From assembly GCA_020425885.1 (NCBI GenBank), contig JAGQRA010000880.1:1-6286 (forward strand): DNA of 6,286 nt. The letters are read 5' to 3'. Shown here in pieces: positions 2 to 6,286 of the stretch. How positions within the stretch are numbered: position 1 is the stretch's first letter; each line of letters opens with the position of its first letter. The notes below the pieces were generated by a model, which saw only the letters and a program-made list of their open reading frames with translations, ran no database searches and was not told where the DNA came from. The DNA comes from Planctomycetota bacterium. GTDB taxonomy: Bacteria; Planctomycetota; UBA1135; UBA2386. A program made the position numbers and the translations under genes.

Positions 2-1135
2 CCGGGCGCGTACGACATCTACCTGCAGGACTGGCCGAGCTGGCTCGCCAACGGCTCGCTCGATCTCGTCTATCCACAGGTCTACCGCACGACGGTGTCG
101 GCCTACACCACCACGCTCGATCAGCAGCTCTCCTACCTGACCGCAGCGCAGCGAGCCAAGGTGGCGCCGGGCATCCGCGCGATCTCGGGCACGCCGCCGA
201 GCGAAGTGCTCGGCATGGTCGCCGCCGATCGCGCGCGGTCGCTGGCCGGGCACGTGTTCTGGTACGAGGCGCAGATCTACGACGACCTGCCGGGGCTCAC
301 CGCGAACTACTTCCAGGTGCCGGCCACGGTGCCGCAGCGTCCGGTCGACTTCCGGCCGCCGCCGGTCGACCGTGAGGAGAACGATCCTGGTACGACTGTC
401 ACGGGGTTCCTGATCCTCGCGGTGCCGAACAGCCACGGCGGCCTCGCGGCGATCGCGCCGCCGACGGCGGCGGCGACCGACCAGGTGCGGTTCGCCCTGC
501 CGGTGCCGAACGCGGGCCTCTACCGCGTGCAGGTCCACGTGCCGTCGGGCGGGGGCTATGCCGCGGCGATCCCGCACCGCGTCGAGCACGCGGCGGGGAC
601 CTCGCTGGCTCCCGTCGATGCGGCGGCGACGGGCGCCGGCGGGTGGCACGAACTCGGCACCTACTGGTTCGCCGGCGGTACGGCTCACGTCGAGGTCGGC
701 GCGGTGCCCGGCGTGGTGACCGTCGCGGATGCCGTGAGCCTGTTGCCGTCGCGCTTCAGGTCAGGGGCGATGACGACCGTCGGCGCCGGCACGGTCGGCA
801 GTGCCGGTACGGCCGAGTTGGCGCTGGCAGGACGCGCCTGCCTCGGCGGCGAACTGCAGCTGCAGGCGGGCTCGCTCGCTGCCGCTGCGCCGCTGGCCTT
901 CGTGCTCGGCTTCCTGCCCGCGGCGACGCCGATGTTCGGCGGCACGCTCACGCTCGCCCCGGTCGGGTCGACGTTCGCGTTGGCCGGACCGACCGGCCGC
1001 GCGGCGTGGATGGTTCCGTTACCGTTCGTGCCCGCGCTCCATGGACTCGCGGTGCGGGCGCAGGCGCTCGGGCTCGATGCAACGGCGACCGGCGGCGTCG
1101 TGCTGACGAACGGCGTCGCGACCAGCCTGCCGTGA
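2..1135 (+). CDS. GHL10 (DUF187) glycosidase-like protein with golvesin/Xly-like and planctomycete-type C-terminal domains, 5' partial
   Basis: The frame is open from base 2, so the start and most of the barrel lie outside the window; the TGA stop is at 1133-1135. The GTG at 95 is internal, because the residues before it (YLQDW, then YPQVY at visible residues 24-28) are conserved family sequence. Visible residues 1 to about 112 match the C-terminal part of a GHL10 TIM barrel. They align with the second GHL10 gene at 5163 (YLQDW/YLQDQ, YPQVY/HPQAY, LAGHVFWYE/LAGEVWFFHE). Residues of about 130-250 resemble a golvesin/Xly-type domain: a strand with YRVQVHVP, an HRVEHAAG strand, GGWHELGTYWFAGG, and a closing VTVADAVSLLPS. 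Residues of about 273-377 form a small Gly/Ala/Leu-rich beta module ending in VLTNGVATSLP, like the end of the secreted protein at 2012-3427. Family knowledge suggests a secreted glycan-active enzyme, but the catalytic residues lie outside the window and the substrate is unknown. It is convergent with msrA. Confidence 0.85.
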   Translation, partial: PGAYDIYLQDWPSWLANGSLDLVYPQVYRTTVSAYTTTLDQQLSYLTAAQRAKVAPGIRAISGTPPSEVLGMVAADRARSLAGHVFWYEAQIYDDLPGLTANYFQVPATVPQRPVDFRPPPVDREENDPGTTVTGFLILAVPNSHGGLAAIAPPTAAATDQVRFALPVPNAGLYRVQVHVPSGGGYAAAIPHRVEHAAGTSLAPVDAAATGAGGWHELGTYWFAGGTAHVEVGAVPGVVTVADAVSLLPSRFRSGAMTTVGAGTVGSAGTAELALAGRACLGGELQLQAGSLAAAAPLAFVLGFLPAATPMFGGTLTLAPVGSTFALAGPTGRAAWMVPLPFVPALHGLAVRAQALGLDATATGGVVLTNGVATSLP

Positions 1136-1163: not shown

Positions 1164-1931
1164 TCAGGGGCGCCTGCGCACGCCGGCGAGTGAGCCGTTG
1201 CCGAGCGCTTCGAAACCCAGCTCGGCGACGGCGGTCTGCAGGTCGCGGAAGCCGAGGTCGCCGGCCGCATACGCGTTCAGCTTGGCGGTGAGCGGCGACT
1301 CGCGGAACTCGGCCTCGGTGGCGAACAGCGGCCGCAGCTGCGCCATGATCTCGCGTTGTTGCCGCAGTGCGTACTTCTGGTGGTAGTCCTCTGCGACCCA
1401 GAACTTCGTGAACGGCACGACCTCGGTCCGTAGCACGCGCACCTCCGCCTCGCGCACCTTCGCTGCGCTGGCTTTCGCGGCGCGCTCCTGGGCGTCATCG
1501 GCGAAGAACAGGATCGCCTGATACTGTCGCGACCACGCGCGGCCGCAAGGCTCGTGGTTCTGCCAGAAGAACTCGAGCAGCCTTTCGTACGAGATCACCG
1601 TCGGATCGAAGTCGAGCTGCAGCGCTTCGGTGTGGTCGCCGATCGACCGATAGGTCGGACTCTCCGTCGTGCCGCCGGCGTAGCCGACGCGCGTGCGCAC
1701 GACCCCCGGCAGACTCGCGAACTGCGAGTCGGGCCCCCAGAATCAACCGAGCGCGAACGTCGCGGTCTGCAACGTCGCGGTCGGTCGGGTCGGGGCTGTC
1801 GTCGAGGTCGCGGGAGTCGGCTGGGCAGTCATCGCCGTGATGGTAGCGTCAGGTACCTGGAAGTCGCTGCGGTGGCCGGTGCCGCAGGCGGCGAGCGCGA
1901 GCAGCAATACGGCCGAACGGGACGTGATCAT
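1164..1931 (-). CDS. msrA: Selenocysteine-containing peptide-methionine (S)-S-oxide reductase MsrA, lipoprotein (in-frame TGA = Sec63)
   Basis: MsrA reduces the S-epimer of methionine sulfoxide in proteins. The active site normally reads GCFWG, with Cys attacking the sulfoxide. Here the frame from ATG 1931 reads to G62, then TGA at 1745-1743, then FWGPDSQF, so the stop codon occupies exactly the catalytic Cys position. The frame then runs on to a TGA stop at 1166-1164, giving 255 residues counting Sec. Order of parts: lipoprotein signal with lipobox LAAC (Cys16); Thr/Ala/Pro-rich linker of about 28-57; ATFALG-U-FWGP at 57-67; GYAGG 83-87; GDHTE 98-102 with the probable catalytic Glu102; HEPC with Cys129; RQY at 135-137; AEDYHQKY near the C-terminal third. 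The only Cys residues are 16 and 129. A SECIS-like hairpin follows the TGA. No clear Shine-Dalgarno is seen; GGTGG abuts the ATG. Both halves look intact and share base composition, which argues against decay. The alternative is a single-base TGC/TGT to TGA sequencing error or a fresh nonsense mutation. The selA/B/C/D genes are not in the window. Confidence 0.85.
1712..1730 (-). promoter_or_regulatory. Bacterial SECIS-like hairpin in msrA
   Basis: In the mRNA GACUCGC-AGUUC-GCGAGUC forms a perfect 7-bp stem with a 5-nt loop. There are 19 nt between the UGA and the first loop base, and G is the second loop base. These features fit the general bacterial SECIS description: a small apical loop with a G in its first two positions, roughly 16-37 nt downstream of UGA, inside the coding sequence. 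A lower stem of GGC (1735-1733) with GCC (1710-1708) is possible across a CC/U internal loop. SelB would bind it to deliver Sec-tRNA. The same bases also encode conserved-looking protein sequence (D-S-Q-F-A-S-L). Confidence 0.75.
1743..1745 (-). other. Recoded UGA (selenocysteine codon 63 of msrA)
   Basis: On the minus strand the codons are GGT, TGA, TTC, TGG, GGG, CCC, which read G-U-F-W-G-P. The position is that of the nucleophilic Cys in the MsrA GCFWG motif. Recoding is inferred from the motif on both sides in one frame and from the hairpin that follows; it has not been shown experimentally. Confidence 0.8.
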
Positions 1932-3589: not shown

Positions 3590-5068
3590 TCAGCCGCCGA
3601 GCAGCTTCAACTGGCGGGCCGCGAACTCGGGCGCGTTCGGCGGTGTCGACCGATCCGGCACTATCTGGCAGCCCTCGGCCAGCAGGTGATGCTGCAGCGC
3701 GCGGACGTCGACCACTCGCGGTTCGACCCCGGCGGCCGCGGCGAGTGCGGCGGCCGCGCCGGCGGCCTGGCCGATCAGCATCGCCACCGGTTGCAGCCGC
3801 GCGCAGCCGTTGACGATGTGCGTCGAGCCGATCGACTTCTCGGCACACAGCAGGCCGTCGACCATGCGCGGCACGAGCGCCGAATAGGGAACCTGGAAGG
3901 GTGCGTTCTTCGGGTAGCACTCGCCGAGCCGGCGGTCGGGCGGGAGGTGCTCGGTGCTGTGGTGGTGGTCCAGGTAGTAGTCGCCGACGGCGATCCCGTC
4001 GGCGAGCAGCGGTGGGCGCTCGGCGCCGGCGGCCGGAACGACGTCCTGCTCGCGGAAGTCACGCACGGCGATCACGCGCCGGCACTCGCGCACGTACGGG
4101 ATCAGCGGCAGCCCGTCGGCGGTCGGATAGACATCGGCGGCCAGGCCCCACTCGGGGTGGGCGAGGTCGTGCTGCATGAAGTGCACGAACGCGAGCGTGC
4201 GGCGCCGGGCGGCAGCGATCGTCGCGGCGCGTTCGGCGGCCGTGCCGAACAGGCCGAGTGCCGGGTGGTCGTTGCTGTGGAACGGCCAGTTCAGCATGAA
4301 CAGCCCGTTCGGCAGCAAACCGTAGCCGAGGAAGCTCGCCCAGTCGTGCAGCGCGTGGTTGAGCAGCTCCGGGTCGGGAGTCGAACAGCGATCGGCGACG
4401 GCGCAGTCGAAGAGCCCGGGGTCGTGGTCTGCTGGCCGCGGCACGGGCCTGGCCGCGCCGTCATGGCGCCGCAGCGTCGCGACCATGGTGATGTCCTGCA
4501 GTTCGAGGTCGGCGGCGGCCGGCGCGTCGGGTTCGCCGGTCTCGGTGCGCGCCTCGCGGCCGAGACGGAACGGCACATCGCCGTGGGCCAGGACGTCGCC
4601 GTACTCGGTGGCCTCGATCGTGACCCGCGCGCGGACCTCGAGCGAACGATCGCCACAGCGGAAGCGGGCGCCGTCGATGCGGTCACCGGTCCGCAACACG
4701 GCTTCGAGTTCGGCGCCGTGGACCACCCGGGCCCCGCTGCGGCCGACCTCGCGCGCCAGCCAGGCGGCCGCGACCTGTGGCTCGAAGCAGGTGTTCGAGA
4801 CCCAGCCCGTGCGCACGTTGGCAGCGCCGCCGTAGTGGGCCTCGATCGCGGCGCGGAACCGGCCGAAGAGGCCGCCGCCGAGCGCGCCCTCGTTGCCGTC
4901 GATCGCGCTGACGCCGGCGGCCGTGATCATGCCGCCGAGCCAGGGGGTGGGTTCGGCGACGAGCGTCGAGGCGCCCATCCGGGATGCCTGCCAGGCGGCC
5001 GCGGCACCCGAGCAGCCGCCGCCGACGACGAGGACATCGACCTCACAACGCTCGATCTCGCTGGTCAT
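3590..5068 (-). CDS. FAD-dependent oxidoreductase (FAD_oxidored type)
   Basis: The protein has 492 residues from ATG 5068 to TGA 3592-3590. This start is chosen because the dinucleotide-binding strand follows directly: DVLVVGGGCSG (residues 11-21) is the GxGxxG Rossmann motif, and Glu39 is the usual ribose-binding acid. WLGGM follows at 43-47 and ATEYGDVL at 153-160. The second FAD-contact segment near the C terminus is DGLLCAEKSIGSTHIVNGCARLQP through IGQAAGAAAALA (about 404-444). Together these match the FAD_oxidored family, some members of which are annotated as xanthan lyase or carry a golvesin/Xly domain. A His-rich patch, DYYLDHHH (363-370), may face the active site. No signal peptide is seen, so it is probably cytoplasmic. 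Substrate unknown; an oxidation of a sugar-derived compound is a guess from the GHL10 neighbours. The frame stays open upstream to 5374, but that extension would overlap the divergent GHL10 gene and carries no family sequence. Confidence 0.88.
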   Translation of the reverse strand: MTSEIERCEVDVLVVGGGCSGAAAAWQASRMGASTLVAEPTPWLGGMITAAGVSAIDGNEGALGGGLFGRFRAAIEAHYGGAANVRTGWVSNTCFEPQVAAAWLAREVGRSGARVVHGAELEAVLRTGDRIDGARFRCGDRSLEVRARVTIEATEYGDVLAHGDVPFRLGREARTETGEPDAPAAADLELQDITMVATLRRHDGAARPVPRPADHDPGLFDCAVADRCSTPDPELLNHALHDWASFLGYGLLPNGLFMLNWPFHSNDHPALGLFGTAAERAATIAAARRRTLAFVHFMQHDLAHPEWGLAADVYPTADGLPLIPYVRECRRVIAVRDFREQDVVPAAGAERPPLLADGIAVGDYYLDHHHSTEHLPPDRRLGECYPKNAPFQVPYSALVPRMVDGLLCAEKSIGSTHIVNGCARLQPVAMLIGQAAGAAAALAAAAGVEPRVVDVRALQHHLLAEGCQIVPDRSTPPNAPEFAARQLKLLGG

Positions 5069-5162
5069 GTCGGGTCGGATGGTAGCGGAGGGTGCAGGCT
5101 CGGAGCTACATGGCGGCACCGGTTGCTCGCGTCGTCTGGGCCCGTTGGCGATAGTGACGCGC
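5069..5162. promoter_or_regulatory. Divergent intergenic region between oxidoreductase and GHL10 lipoprotein
   Basis: This 94-bp gap must hold the start signals for both flanking genes. GATAGT at 5150-5155 is a weak -10-like box for the plus-strand gene and would give an almost leaderless mRNA. No convincing -35 box or Shine-Dalgarno is visible for either gene. Confidence 0.35.
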
Positions 5163-6286
5163 ATGCAAGCGATCCACTTCGCCGCCGTCGTGCCGCTCCT
5201 GCTGCTCGCCCCGCTCGCCTGCCAGTCGACCGGGACCGACCCCGTCGAGGTCCGCGGCGTCTGGATTCCCAACACCGACACCACCTTCTTCGATTCGCGC
5301 GCCAACGTCGCGGCCGGCTGCGAGGCGCTGGCCACGGCCGGCGTCAACGTCATCTTCCCCGTGGTCTGGAGCAAGGGCTACACGCTGTTCCACAGCGAGG
5401 TCGTCGGCGAGCTGATCGGCGCGGCGGTCGACCCGCGCTACGCCGGTCGCGATCCGCTCGCCGAGGTCGTGTTCGAGGCCCACCGTCACGGCATCGAGGT
5501 CGTGCCGTGGTTCGAGTACGGCTTCGCCGCCGGACACGTGCGGTTCCCCGGCAGGGTGCTCGAGCGCCGGCCGGACTGGGCGGCTCTCGGCGCCGACGGC
5601 GAACCCGTGGTCAAGAACGGGTTCCAGTGGATGAACGCCTTCGACCCGAAGGTGCAGGAGTTCGTGACGGCGATGGTGCTCGAGGTCGCCCGGAACTACG
5701 ACGTCGACGGCGTGCAGGGTGACGATCGGCTGCCGGCGCTCGCCGTCGAGGGCGGCTACAACCACGCCGTCGCCGCGGCCTGGCGCAAGGCGCACGGCAG
5801 CGCGCCGCCGGCCGACTGTCGCGAGAGCGGGTGGGTGCGCTGGCGCGCCGACCGCCTGACGGGCTACCTCGCGAAGCTGCGCGCCGCGGTCAAGGCCGTC
5901 GATCCCGGACTCGCGTTCACGATGGCGCCCGGCGCGCCGAACTGGGCCTACACCGAGTACCTGCAGGACCAGCGGACCTGGGTCGAGCGCGGGCTCGTCG
6001 ACTCGCTGCACCCGCAGGCCTACGCGCGCAGCCTCGCCGGCTACGAGAAGATGGTCGACGACATCCTCGCCATCGAGTGGATCGGCCGCCGCCGCGACCT
6101 GCTCGCGCCCGGTGTCCTGATCAGCATCGCCGACTGGTTCGCCGACGGTGAACTCGCGGTCGGCGCGGTGGCCGCCGGGCGCCGGCGCAAGCTCGCCGGC
6201 GAGGTGTGGTTCTTCCATGAAGGGCTGGTGCGGAAAGATGGCGCCGTCGGTCGCGGGCTCGCGGCCGGACCCTACGCGCGGCGCGC
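5163..6286 (+). CDS. GHL10 (DUF187) glycosidase-like lipoprotein, 3' partial
   Basis: The frame is open from ATG 5163 to the window end (374 full codons). The N terminus is a lipoprotein signal ending in APLAC with Cys20 as the lipid site, then a short linker and the barrel. Barrel landmarks: RGVWI at 31-35 (first strand), VNVIFPVVWSKG 61-72, GIEVVPWFEYGF 110-121, a KNGFQWMNAFDP segment 151-162, YDVDGVQGDDR 179-189 (the Asp-rich strand usually carrying the acidic residues), FTMAPG 252-257, SLHPQAY 281-287, and GEVWFFHEGL 346-355. This covers essentially the whole GHL10 barrel, so little of that domain is missing; extra domains may follow. It is a paralogue of the gene at 2-1135. The N-region lacks Lys/Arg unless translation starts at the in-frame GTG 5154 (adds Met-Thr-Arg), so that start is a real alternative. 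The likely role is hydrolysis of a cell-surface or periplasmic glycan; the substrate is unknown. It diverges from the FAD oxidoreductase gene. Confidence 0.88.
   Translation, partial: MQAIHFAAVVPLLLLAPLACQSTGTDPVEVRGVWIPNTDTTFFDSRANVAAGCEALATAGVNVIFPVVWSKGYTLFHSEVVGELIGAAVDPRYAGRDPLAEVVFEAHRHGIEVVPWFEYGFAAGHVRFPGRVLERRPDWAALGADGEPVVKNGFQWMNAFDPKVQEFVTAMVLEVARNYDVDGVQGDDRLPALAVEGGYNHAVAAAWRKAHGSAPPADCRESGWVRWRADRLTGYLAKLRAAVKAVDPGLAFTMAPGAPNWAYTEYLQDQRTWVERGLVDSLHPQAYARSLAGYEKMVDDILAIEWIGRRRDLLAPGVLISIADWFADGELAVGAVAAGRRRKLAGEVWFFHEGLVRKDGAVGRGLAAGPYARR

Follow-up and report, generated by a model that had tools for sequence, protein, structure and literature searches.

A putative lipoprotein-type MsrA with a probable catalytic selenocysteine encoded in planctomycete-type DNA

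The window (the whole 6,286-nucleotide stretch of DNA that was analysed) carries on its minus strand an msrA gene for which we favour, with a probability that we put at about 95%, the following reading: the product is a methionine-S-sulfoxide reductase that is exported and anchored by a lipid, and selenocysteine (Sec), inserted via SelB and an mRNA hairpin, serves as its catalytic residue 63. The in-frame TGA at 1745-1743 is very probably the codon for this residue. A preliminary description of the DNA, made from its letters, had proposed a selenoprotein at this place, and the proposal is supported by the alternation of Sec and Cys codons in relatives, by a hairpin that is kept by codon choice, by the co-occurrence of SelB in the genomes of relatives, and by a Sec-MsrA from C. 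oremlandii as the closest solved structure.

The msrA reading frame and its in-frame TGA

The gene and the elements within it are located as follows.

1164..1931, minus strand: msrA read-through coding sequence (ATG at 1931; 255 aa; Sec as residue 63; stop TGA at 1166-1164)
1884..1931, minus strand: putative lipoprotein signal, residues 1-16 (MITSRSAVLLLALAAC), with lipobox LAAC and Cys16 expected to be lipidated (sequence by eye and a simple pattern)
1743..1745, minus strand: in-frame TGA at residue 63, the catalytic position of the GUFWG motif, very probably encoding selenocysteine (frame translation and codon alignment of relatives)
1350..1766, minus strand: MsrA catalytic domain PF01625, residues 56-194 (Pfam match)
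1167..1358, minus strand: C-terminal helical domain, approximately residues 192-255, resembling that of C. oremlandii MsrA (sequence match, predicted fold and structure alignment)
1545..1547, minus strand: codon of Cys129, in the loop before active-site Gln136-Tyr137, a candidate resolving cysteine (sequence; secondary structure of the model)
1712..1730, minus strand: SECIS hairpin, with a 7-bp stem (1730-1724 / 1718-1712) and the loop AGUUC (1723-1719)
1704..1745, minus strand: covariance-model match (model of 60 relatives, window excluded; 52 bits, E 4.1e-11)
1164..1700, minus strand: open reading frame under table 11, 178 aa, with a GTG start at 1700 and without the active site (ORF calling)

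The minus-strand frame from 1931 to 1164 translates as M...LALAAC...FALG-U-FWGPDSQF..., with the TGA at 1745-1743 as its one single internal stop and the frame intact on either side of it. The active-site motif of MsrA is GCFWG. That the TGA takes the place of the catalytic Cys codon, as first proposed, is borne out by the single internal stop and by the match of residues 56-194 of the read-through protein to Pfam PF01625 (6e-40), and the same protein clears the cut-off of the NCBI TIGR00401 msrA model in a profile search. A match to NCBIfam NF041383 (Trx_VPGUxxT_two) reached 38 bits, far short of the model's cut-off of 275. The part before the TGA runs from a short basic/hydrophobic stretch ending in LAAC through a linker into the first strand of the fold, and after the TGA the remaining MsrA motifs are present as described, with six further active-site residues all kept.

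Genome contigs were scanned with an alignment of relatives' proteins, which gave at least 552 confirmed relatives, and the best 80 loci were kept; these are the most window-like, and the proportion of TGA among them therefore speaks for the closest relatives and not for the wider family. The codon aligned to residue 63 was TGA in 74, TGC in three and TGT in three of these loci (best 80 of at least 552), so that U and C alternate at this residue, with Cys in six. The TGA loci among the best 80 of at least 552 span 11 named phyla, and the earlier characterization of bacterial Sec-MsrA as mostly Clostridia-like proved too narrow. As all loci have common ancestry, counts across them are not independent. 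The nearest genome locus (L004) lies on a contig titled Planctomycetota bacterium isolate Prado171 and is 62% identical over residues 7-253. Within the order of L004, MsrA of the C. oremlandii type, defined by the clade described below, was found in 10 of 154 genomes at 11 places, with TGA at the codon in all. One of the genomes (G109) has an additional TAG within the matched stretch of this MsrA. A scan of viral contigs returned five loci, all of them ordinary Cys MsrA and none with TGA at the codon.

Since TGA is one base away from TGC and TGT, it could in principle stem from a nonsense mutation in a decaying msrA, or from a one-base sequencing or assembly error. We consider this very improbable, because the TGA is common to 74 of 80 genome records (best 80 of at least 552), the frame holds no other internal stop, the six further active-site residues are all kept, and the window's own hairpin has been preserved through a compensatory double change (see below). 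The shared TGA likewise upholds the initial argument that a chance nonsense mutation or error would hardly fall on exactly the catalytic codon, and no degraded sequence was found after the TGA in relatives.

Gene calling under table 11 predicts the 178-aa protein from the GTG at 1700, which lacks the active site, just as had been foreseen, and this protein could itself be the product if the upstream part were not read through. Databases hold such truncated proteins for the closest relatives: the nine nearest proteins in a protein search (62-78% identity, 150-179 aa) have aligned starts after the TGA position, which is the pattern expected of gene calls truncated by a TGA. Such a product would, however, be devoid of the catalytic residue and of the fold's first strand. 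Upstream of the TGA lie a putative signal peptide, a linker and a strand (55-61) that is continuous with the domain, and the conservation of the hairpin would be left without purpose; there is thus very little chance that the 178-aa protein is what the gene is for. With selenocysteine at the TGA as the preferred reading, termination at the UGA or re-initiation may still occur to some extent.

A conserved hairpin and selenocysteine genes in relatives

The stem of the hairpin begins 12 nt and its loop 19 nt after the UGA. The published bSECIS model (PMC13188914) comprises a loop of 3-9 nt, a stem of 4-16 bp, a G in the first two loop bases, a distance of 16-37 nt from the UGA and an MFE <= -7.5; the window hairpin fits these limits with a loop of 5, a stem of 7, a spacing of 19 and -17.2 kcal/mol. 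Against dinucleotide shuffles, the fold energy of the 71-nt stretch was no better than chance at 71% GC (z = -0.24). The window hairpin ranked at 0.057 among 60 synonymous recodings, all 60 of which also reach -7.5 kcal/mol, and across 82 TGA genes the published energy limit was passed by a mean of 90% of recodings. Hairpin energy was consequently dropped as evidence and, as the bSECIS energy model is uninformative at the GC content of the window, the conservation of base pairs was used as the test instead.

Synonymous recoding drew on each gene's own codon usage, with 500 rounds for pair counts and 60 for energies. The apical pairs 18/24, 17/25 and 16/26 (offsets after the UGA) each form in 82 of 82 distinct TGA genes, window included; the 500 recoding rounds gave on average 68, 50 and 27 and at most 76, 63 and 41. 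Over the 82 genes the stem's seven pairs add up to 459, while no shuffle gave more than 314. A G stands at loop offset 20 in 80 of the 82 (recoding mean 45), and 81 use GGG as the codon at offset 24-26. The window is the sole gene of the 82 with Ala in place of Gly at offset 24-26, and its codons TCG and GCG turn the pair 17/25 from C-G into G-C, a double compensatory change. The six Cys genes show 14 of the stem pairs in all where 14.2 are expected, i.e., the level of chance. The hairpin is maintained through synonymous codon choice. The SECIS-like hairpin of the preliminary description therefore exists and is conserved across relatives beyond chance, while its energy alone is not above chance.

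In 60 relatives, the window left aside, 23 doubly changed cells were counted, more than in all 500 column shuffles and in every slid register; two of the five shuffle measures were unexceptional: two pairs showed a change on both sides, a count equalled or exceeded in 480 of 500 shuffles, and the tally of further pair types was equalled or exceeded in 72 of 500. Only 30 and 26 of the 60 relatives, respectively, form the two outermost stem pairs. When 60 of the 74 TGA loci were used to train a covariance model, again leaving the window out, the window site scored 52 bits and the next match 7 bits; 21 TGA loci outside the model reached 44-64 bits and the six Cys loci 15-32 bits (the top one being L007), and all these scores include protein-level similarity as well. 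Rfam was discarded as support, its sole match in the window up to E = 1 being a chance match to an unrelated stretch.

SelB and tRNA-Sec were searched in 49 genomes drawn from the best 80 loci (43 TGA, 6 Cys). SelB was above cut-off in 39 of the 43 TGA genomes versus none of the six Cys genomes (Fisher p 1.5e-5), and tRNA-Sec in 35 of the 43 versus one of the six (G007, weak, 51 bits). SelB fell below cut-off in four TGA genomes (G003, G014, G022 and G023), of which three have a strong tRNA-Sec (above 57 bits) and G022 has neither; tRNA-Sec was not above cut-off in eight of the 43. Among 14 control genomes, two had SelB and five had tRNA-Sec above cut-off, so that weak tRNA-Sec matches count for little. 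SelA was above cut-off in 10 of 10 planctomycete genomes and SelD in 10 of 10 genomes of L004's order with C. oremlandii-type MsrA, and tRNA-Sec was found in nine of the nine such genomes other than that of L004. The genome of L004, the nearest relative, holds SelA, SelB and SelD; a tRNA-Sec search there gave none above cut-off, perhaps due to an incomplete MAG.

In all ten genomes of the order with C. oremlandii-type MsrA (G002, G003, G004, G043, G078, G109, G120, G125, G126 and G186), the best SelD match contains one internal TGA, and SelD is therefore probably a selenoprotein there too.

A conserved gene with an in-frame TGA would also be expected if TGA were reassigned genome-wide to Trp, Gly or Cys, with no selenocysteine involved. 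TGA is, however, the stop of four window genes (msrA and the DUF4623-like, FAD and GHL10/Golvesin genes listed below), which means that it is not reassigned wholesale. The site is Cys in 6 of 80 loci and TGA in the rest (best 80 of at least 552), and hence not a Trp or Gly site. SelB, moreover, was above cut-off in 139 of the 154 genomes of L004's order, a frequency at which its presence within the order does not mark out the ten genomes with C. oremlandii-type MsrA. Reassignment is thus extremely improbable, and Sec remains the preferred reading of the codon.

Family, fold and gene neighbourhood

The predicted structure of the read-through protein (pLDDT 86) has C-terminal helices between residues 187 and 237, and its top PDB matches, by sequence and by predicted fold alike, were structures of the C. 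oremlandii Sec-MsrA (CoMsrA; PDB 4lwj, 4lwk, 4lwm, 4u66, 7c13), which likewise has a GUFWG site and a C-terminal helical domain. Structure comparison with 4lwm gave a TM of 0.86 by target length at 1.4 A and 40% identity, and 4lwj also aligned; in sequence, the two proteins are 40-41% identical over 185 columns. CoMsrA residues Tyr47, Glu55, Gln89, Tyr90, His137 and Tyr140, as named in PMC4333827, correspond to Y94, E102, Q136, Y137, H184 and Y187 of the window protein. According to PMC4479559, CoMsrA is a protein of 209 aa with no Cys, whereas the window protein adds a 16-residue putative lipoprotein signal, a long linker and Cys129; the same paper reports that the Sec form of CoMsrA is 20-fold more active than the Cys form, that glutaredoxin reduces it while thioredoxin does not, and that a dimer route is possible.

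For the tree, loci whose alignment to the window protein reached a score of 200 were taken (136 including the window), and removal of seven with identical codon regions left 129. The C. oremlandii-type proteins form a single clade of 88 rows that includes the window (100/100 support, branch 1.12); CoMsrA itself is not in the tree. This clade holds 82 Sec and 6 Cys rows, with Cys in four places on a backbone that is mostly unresolved. L007 (position 6899), a Dehalococcoidia member with Cys, has Sec members as tree neighbours and scores 32 bits with the hairpin model; it may have switched from Sec to Cys recently, its hairpin now decaying. Ordinary Cys MsrA, as in E. coli, M. tuberculosis and the Cys copies in L004's order, shares the fold and, by family, the reaction, with Cys instead of Sec; the Cys copies of L004's order lie outside the C. 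oremlandii-type clade and are without its hairpin.

A second MsrA type with TGA at the catalytic codon was observed in L004's order at 12 distinct loci (L098, L106, L107, L126, L127, L128, L131, L132, L134, L135, L136 and L143). Its motifs are GUFWGVE, GUFWGME or GUFWGIE, and these loci are ordinary MsrA outside the C. oremlandii-type clade, and the 129-protein tree scatters them over three positions among Cys MsrA. The hairpin differs as well: its loop lies 24 nt after the UGA and reads CGUGCU in seven of the 12 loci. Its nine pairs form in 95 of 108 cases (shuffles: 79 on average, 88 at most), and in 28 ordinary Cys genes they form 121 times (112 on average and 124 at most in the shuffles). 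This looks like a separate conversion of Cys to Sec. One further ordinary MsrA copy, L129 in G152, has AGT (Ser) at the catalytic codon and was placed in none of the four codon/hairpin groups; the other copy in that genome has TGA, and neither SelB nor tRNA-Sec was above cut-off in G152.

Four other genes occupy the remainder of the window, all assigned by domain search.

2-1135, plus strand: GHL10 glycosyl-hydrolase-like protein with a Golvesin C-terminal domain, cut by the contig end
2012-3427, minus strand: protein weakly like DUF4623, just below the Pfam cut-off
3590-5071, minus strand: FAD-dependent oxidoreductase (PF12831)
5163-6284, plus strand: second GHL10 glycosyl-hydrolase-like protein, cut by the contig end

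The FAD and DUF4623-like genes precede msrA on the same strand, with a gap of 80 bases between the DUF4623-like gene and msrA. The idea that the GHL10 sequences at both contig ends are one gene split by a circular join was rejected, as they align as two paralogues. The window FAD protein has 61-71% identical matches in 11 of the 154 genomes of L004's order and only weak matches in L004's genome itself, while the DUF4623-like protein, matched in 4 of 13 genomes, finds a 56% match in that of L004. Together with the Planctomycetota title of L004, these matches agree with the original designation of the DNA as planctomycete-type; judged from sequence matches in a comparison that covered this one order, the window probably belongs to or near it.

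Proposed function and place among known Sec-MsrA proteins

A lipoprotein signal had been read from the N-terminus at the outset, and a clear lipobox-like LAAC does follow the hydrophobic stretch, both by eye and by a simple pattern. The same pattern is passed by 26 of 88 family members, window included, so the lipoprotein form is not peculiar to the window. From these sequence features, MsrA is probably tethered to the membrane. Cys129 occurs in 16 of 19 planctomycete TGA members (the window, 10 loci so titled and 8 more from L004's order) versus 1 of 63 others, and it is possibly a resolving cysteine. With both Cys16 of the lipobox and Cys129 present, we did not file the window protein as a 1-Cys type MsrA.

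In the mechanism that we propose, SelB would carry Sec-tRNA-Sec to the UGA, delivery taking place there because the mRNA hairpin at 1730-1712 would recruit SelB. MsrA would be exported and then lipidated on Cys16, and Sec63 would attack methionine-S-sulfoxide in envelope proteins, after which the oxidised Sec63 would be reduced, possibly via Cys129 and a thioredoxin- or glutaredoxin-like partner. The planctomycete members could accordingly form a mechanistic variant, i.e., an envelope lipoprotein with an intramolecular Sec63-Cys129 selenenylsulfide that is recycled by a thioredoxin-like partner rather than by the glutaredoxin/dimer route of CoMsrA; we offer this tentatively, at somewhat worse than even odds.

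The green-algal (eukaryotic) Sec-MsrA has Sec at the catalytic position. Eukaryotic SECIS elements are located in the 3' UTR, according to the available part of a review, unlike the hairpin of the window. In Sargasso Sea data, Sec-MsrA was judged eukaryotic in origin, with no bacterial SECIS, in the text available from PMC1088965. MsrA was included in 2006 among the selenoproteins of the Deltaproteobacterium Syntrophobacter fumaroxidans (table in PMC1794560), and Sec-MsrA with a GUFWG/H site figures as an accepted bacterial selenoprotein in PMC13188914. Selenoproteins have been reported in Planctomycetes by a paper whose main text does not mention MsrA (PMC4807772). In the collection of papers searched, none dealt with selenoprotein, Planctomycetota and MsrA together, in keeping with the initial remark that no planctomycete-type case was known, and the available portions of reviews and surveys from 2005 to 2026 contained no phylum list for Sec-MsrA.

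Sec-MsrA is thus already known from bacteria, and the lipoprotein signal and Cys129 may make the planctomycete form a variant of it. If the lipoprotein signal is real, it raises the question of how oxidised Sec would be recycled outside the cytoplasm. C. oremlandii-type MsrA was found in print for few bacteria, yet 74 of the 80 closest loci (best 80 of at least 552) have TGA as the catalytic codon, and genes of this kind emerge from standard gene calling as proteins that lack an active site. The hairpin tip CCC-RGUUY-GGG is nearly invariant across the 11 named phyla among the closest loci, and therefore provides a ready model with which such genes can be found and re-annotated.
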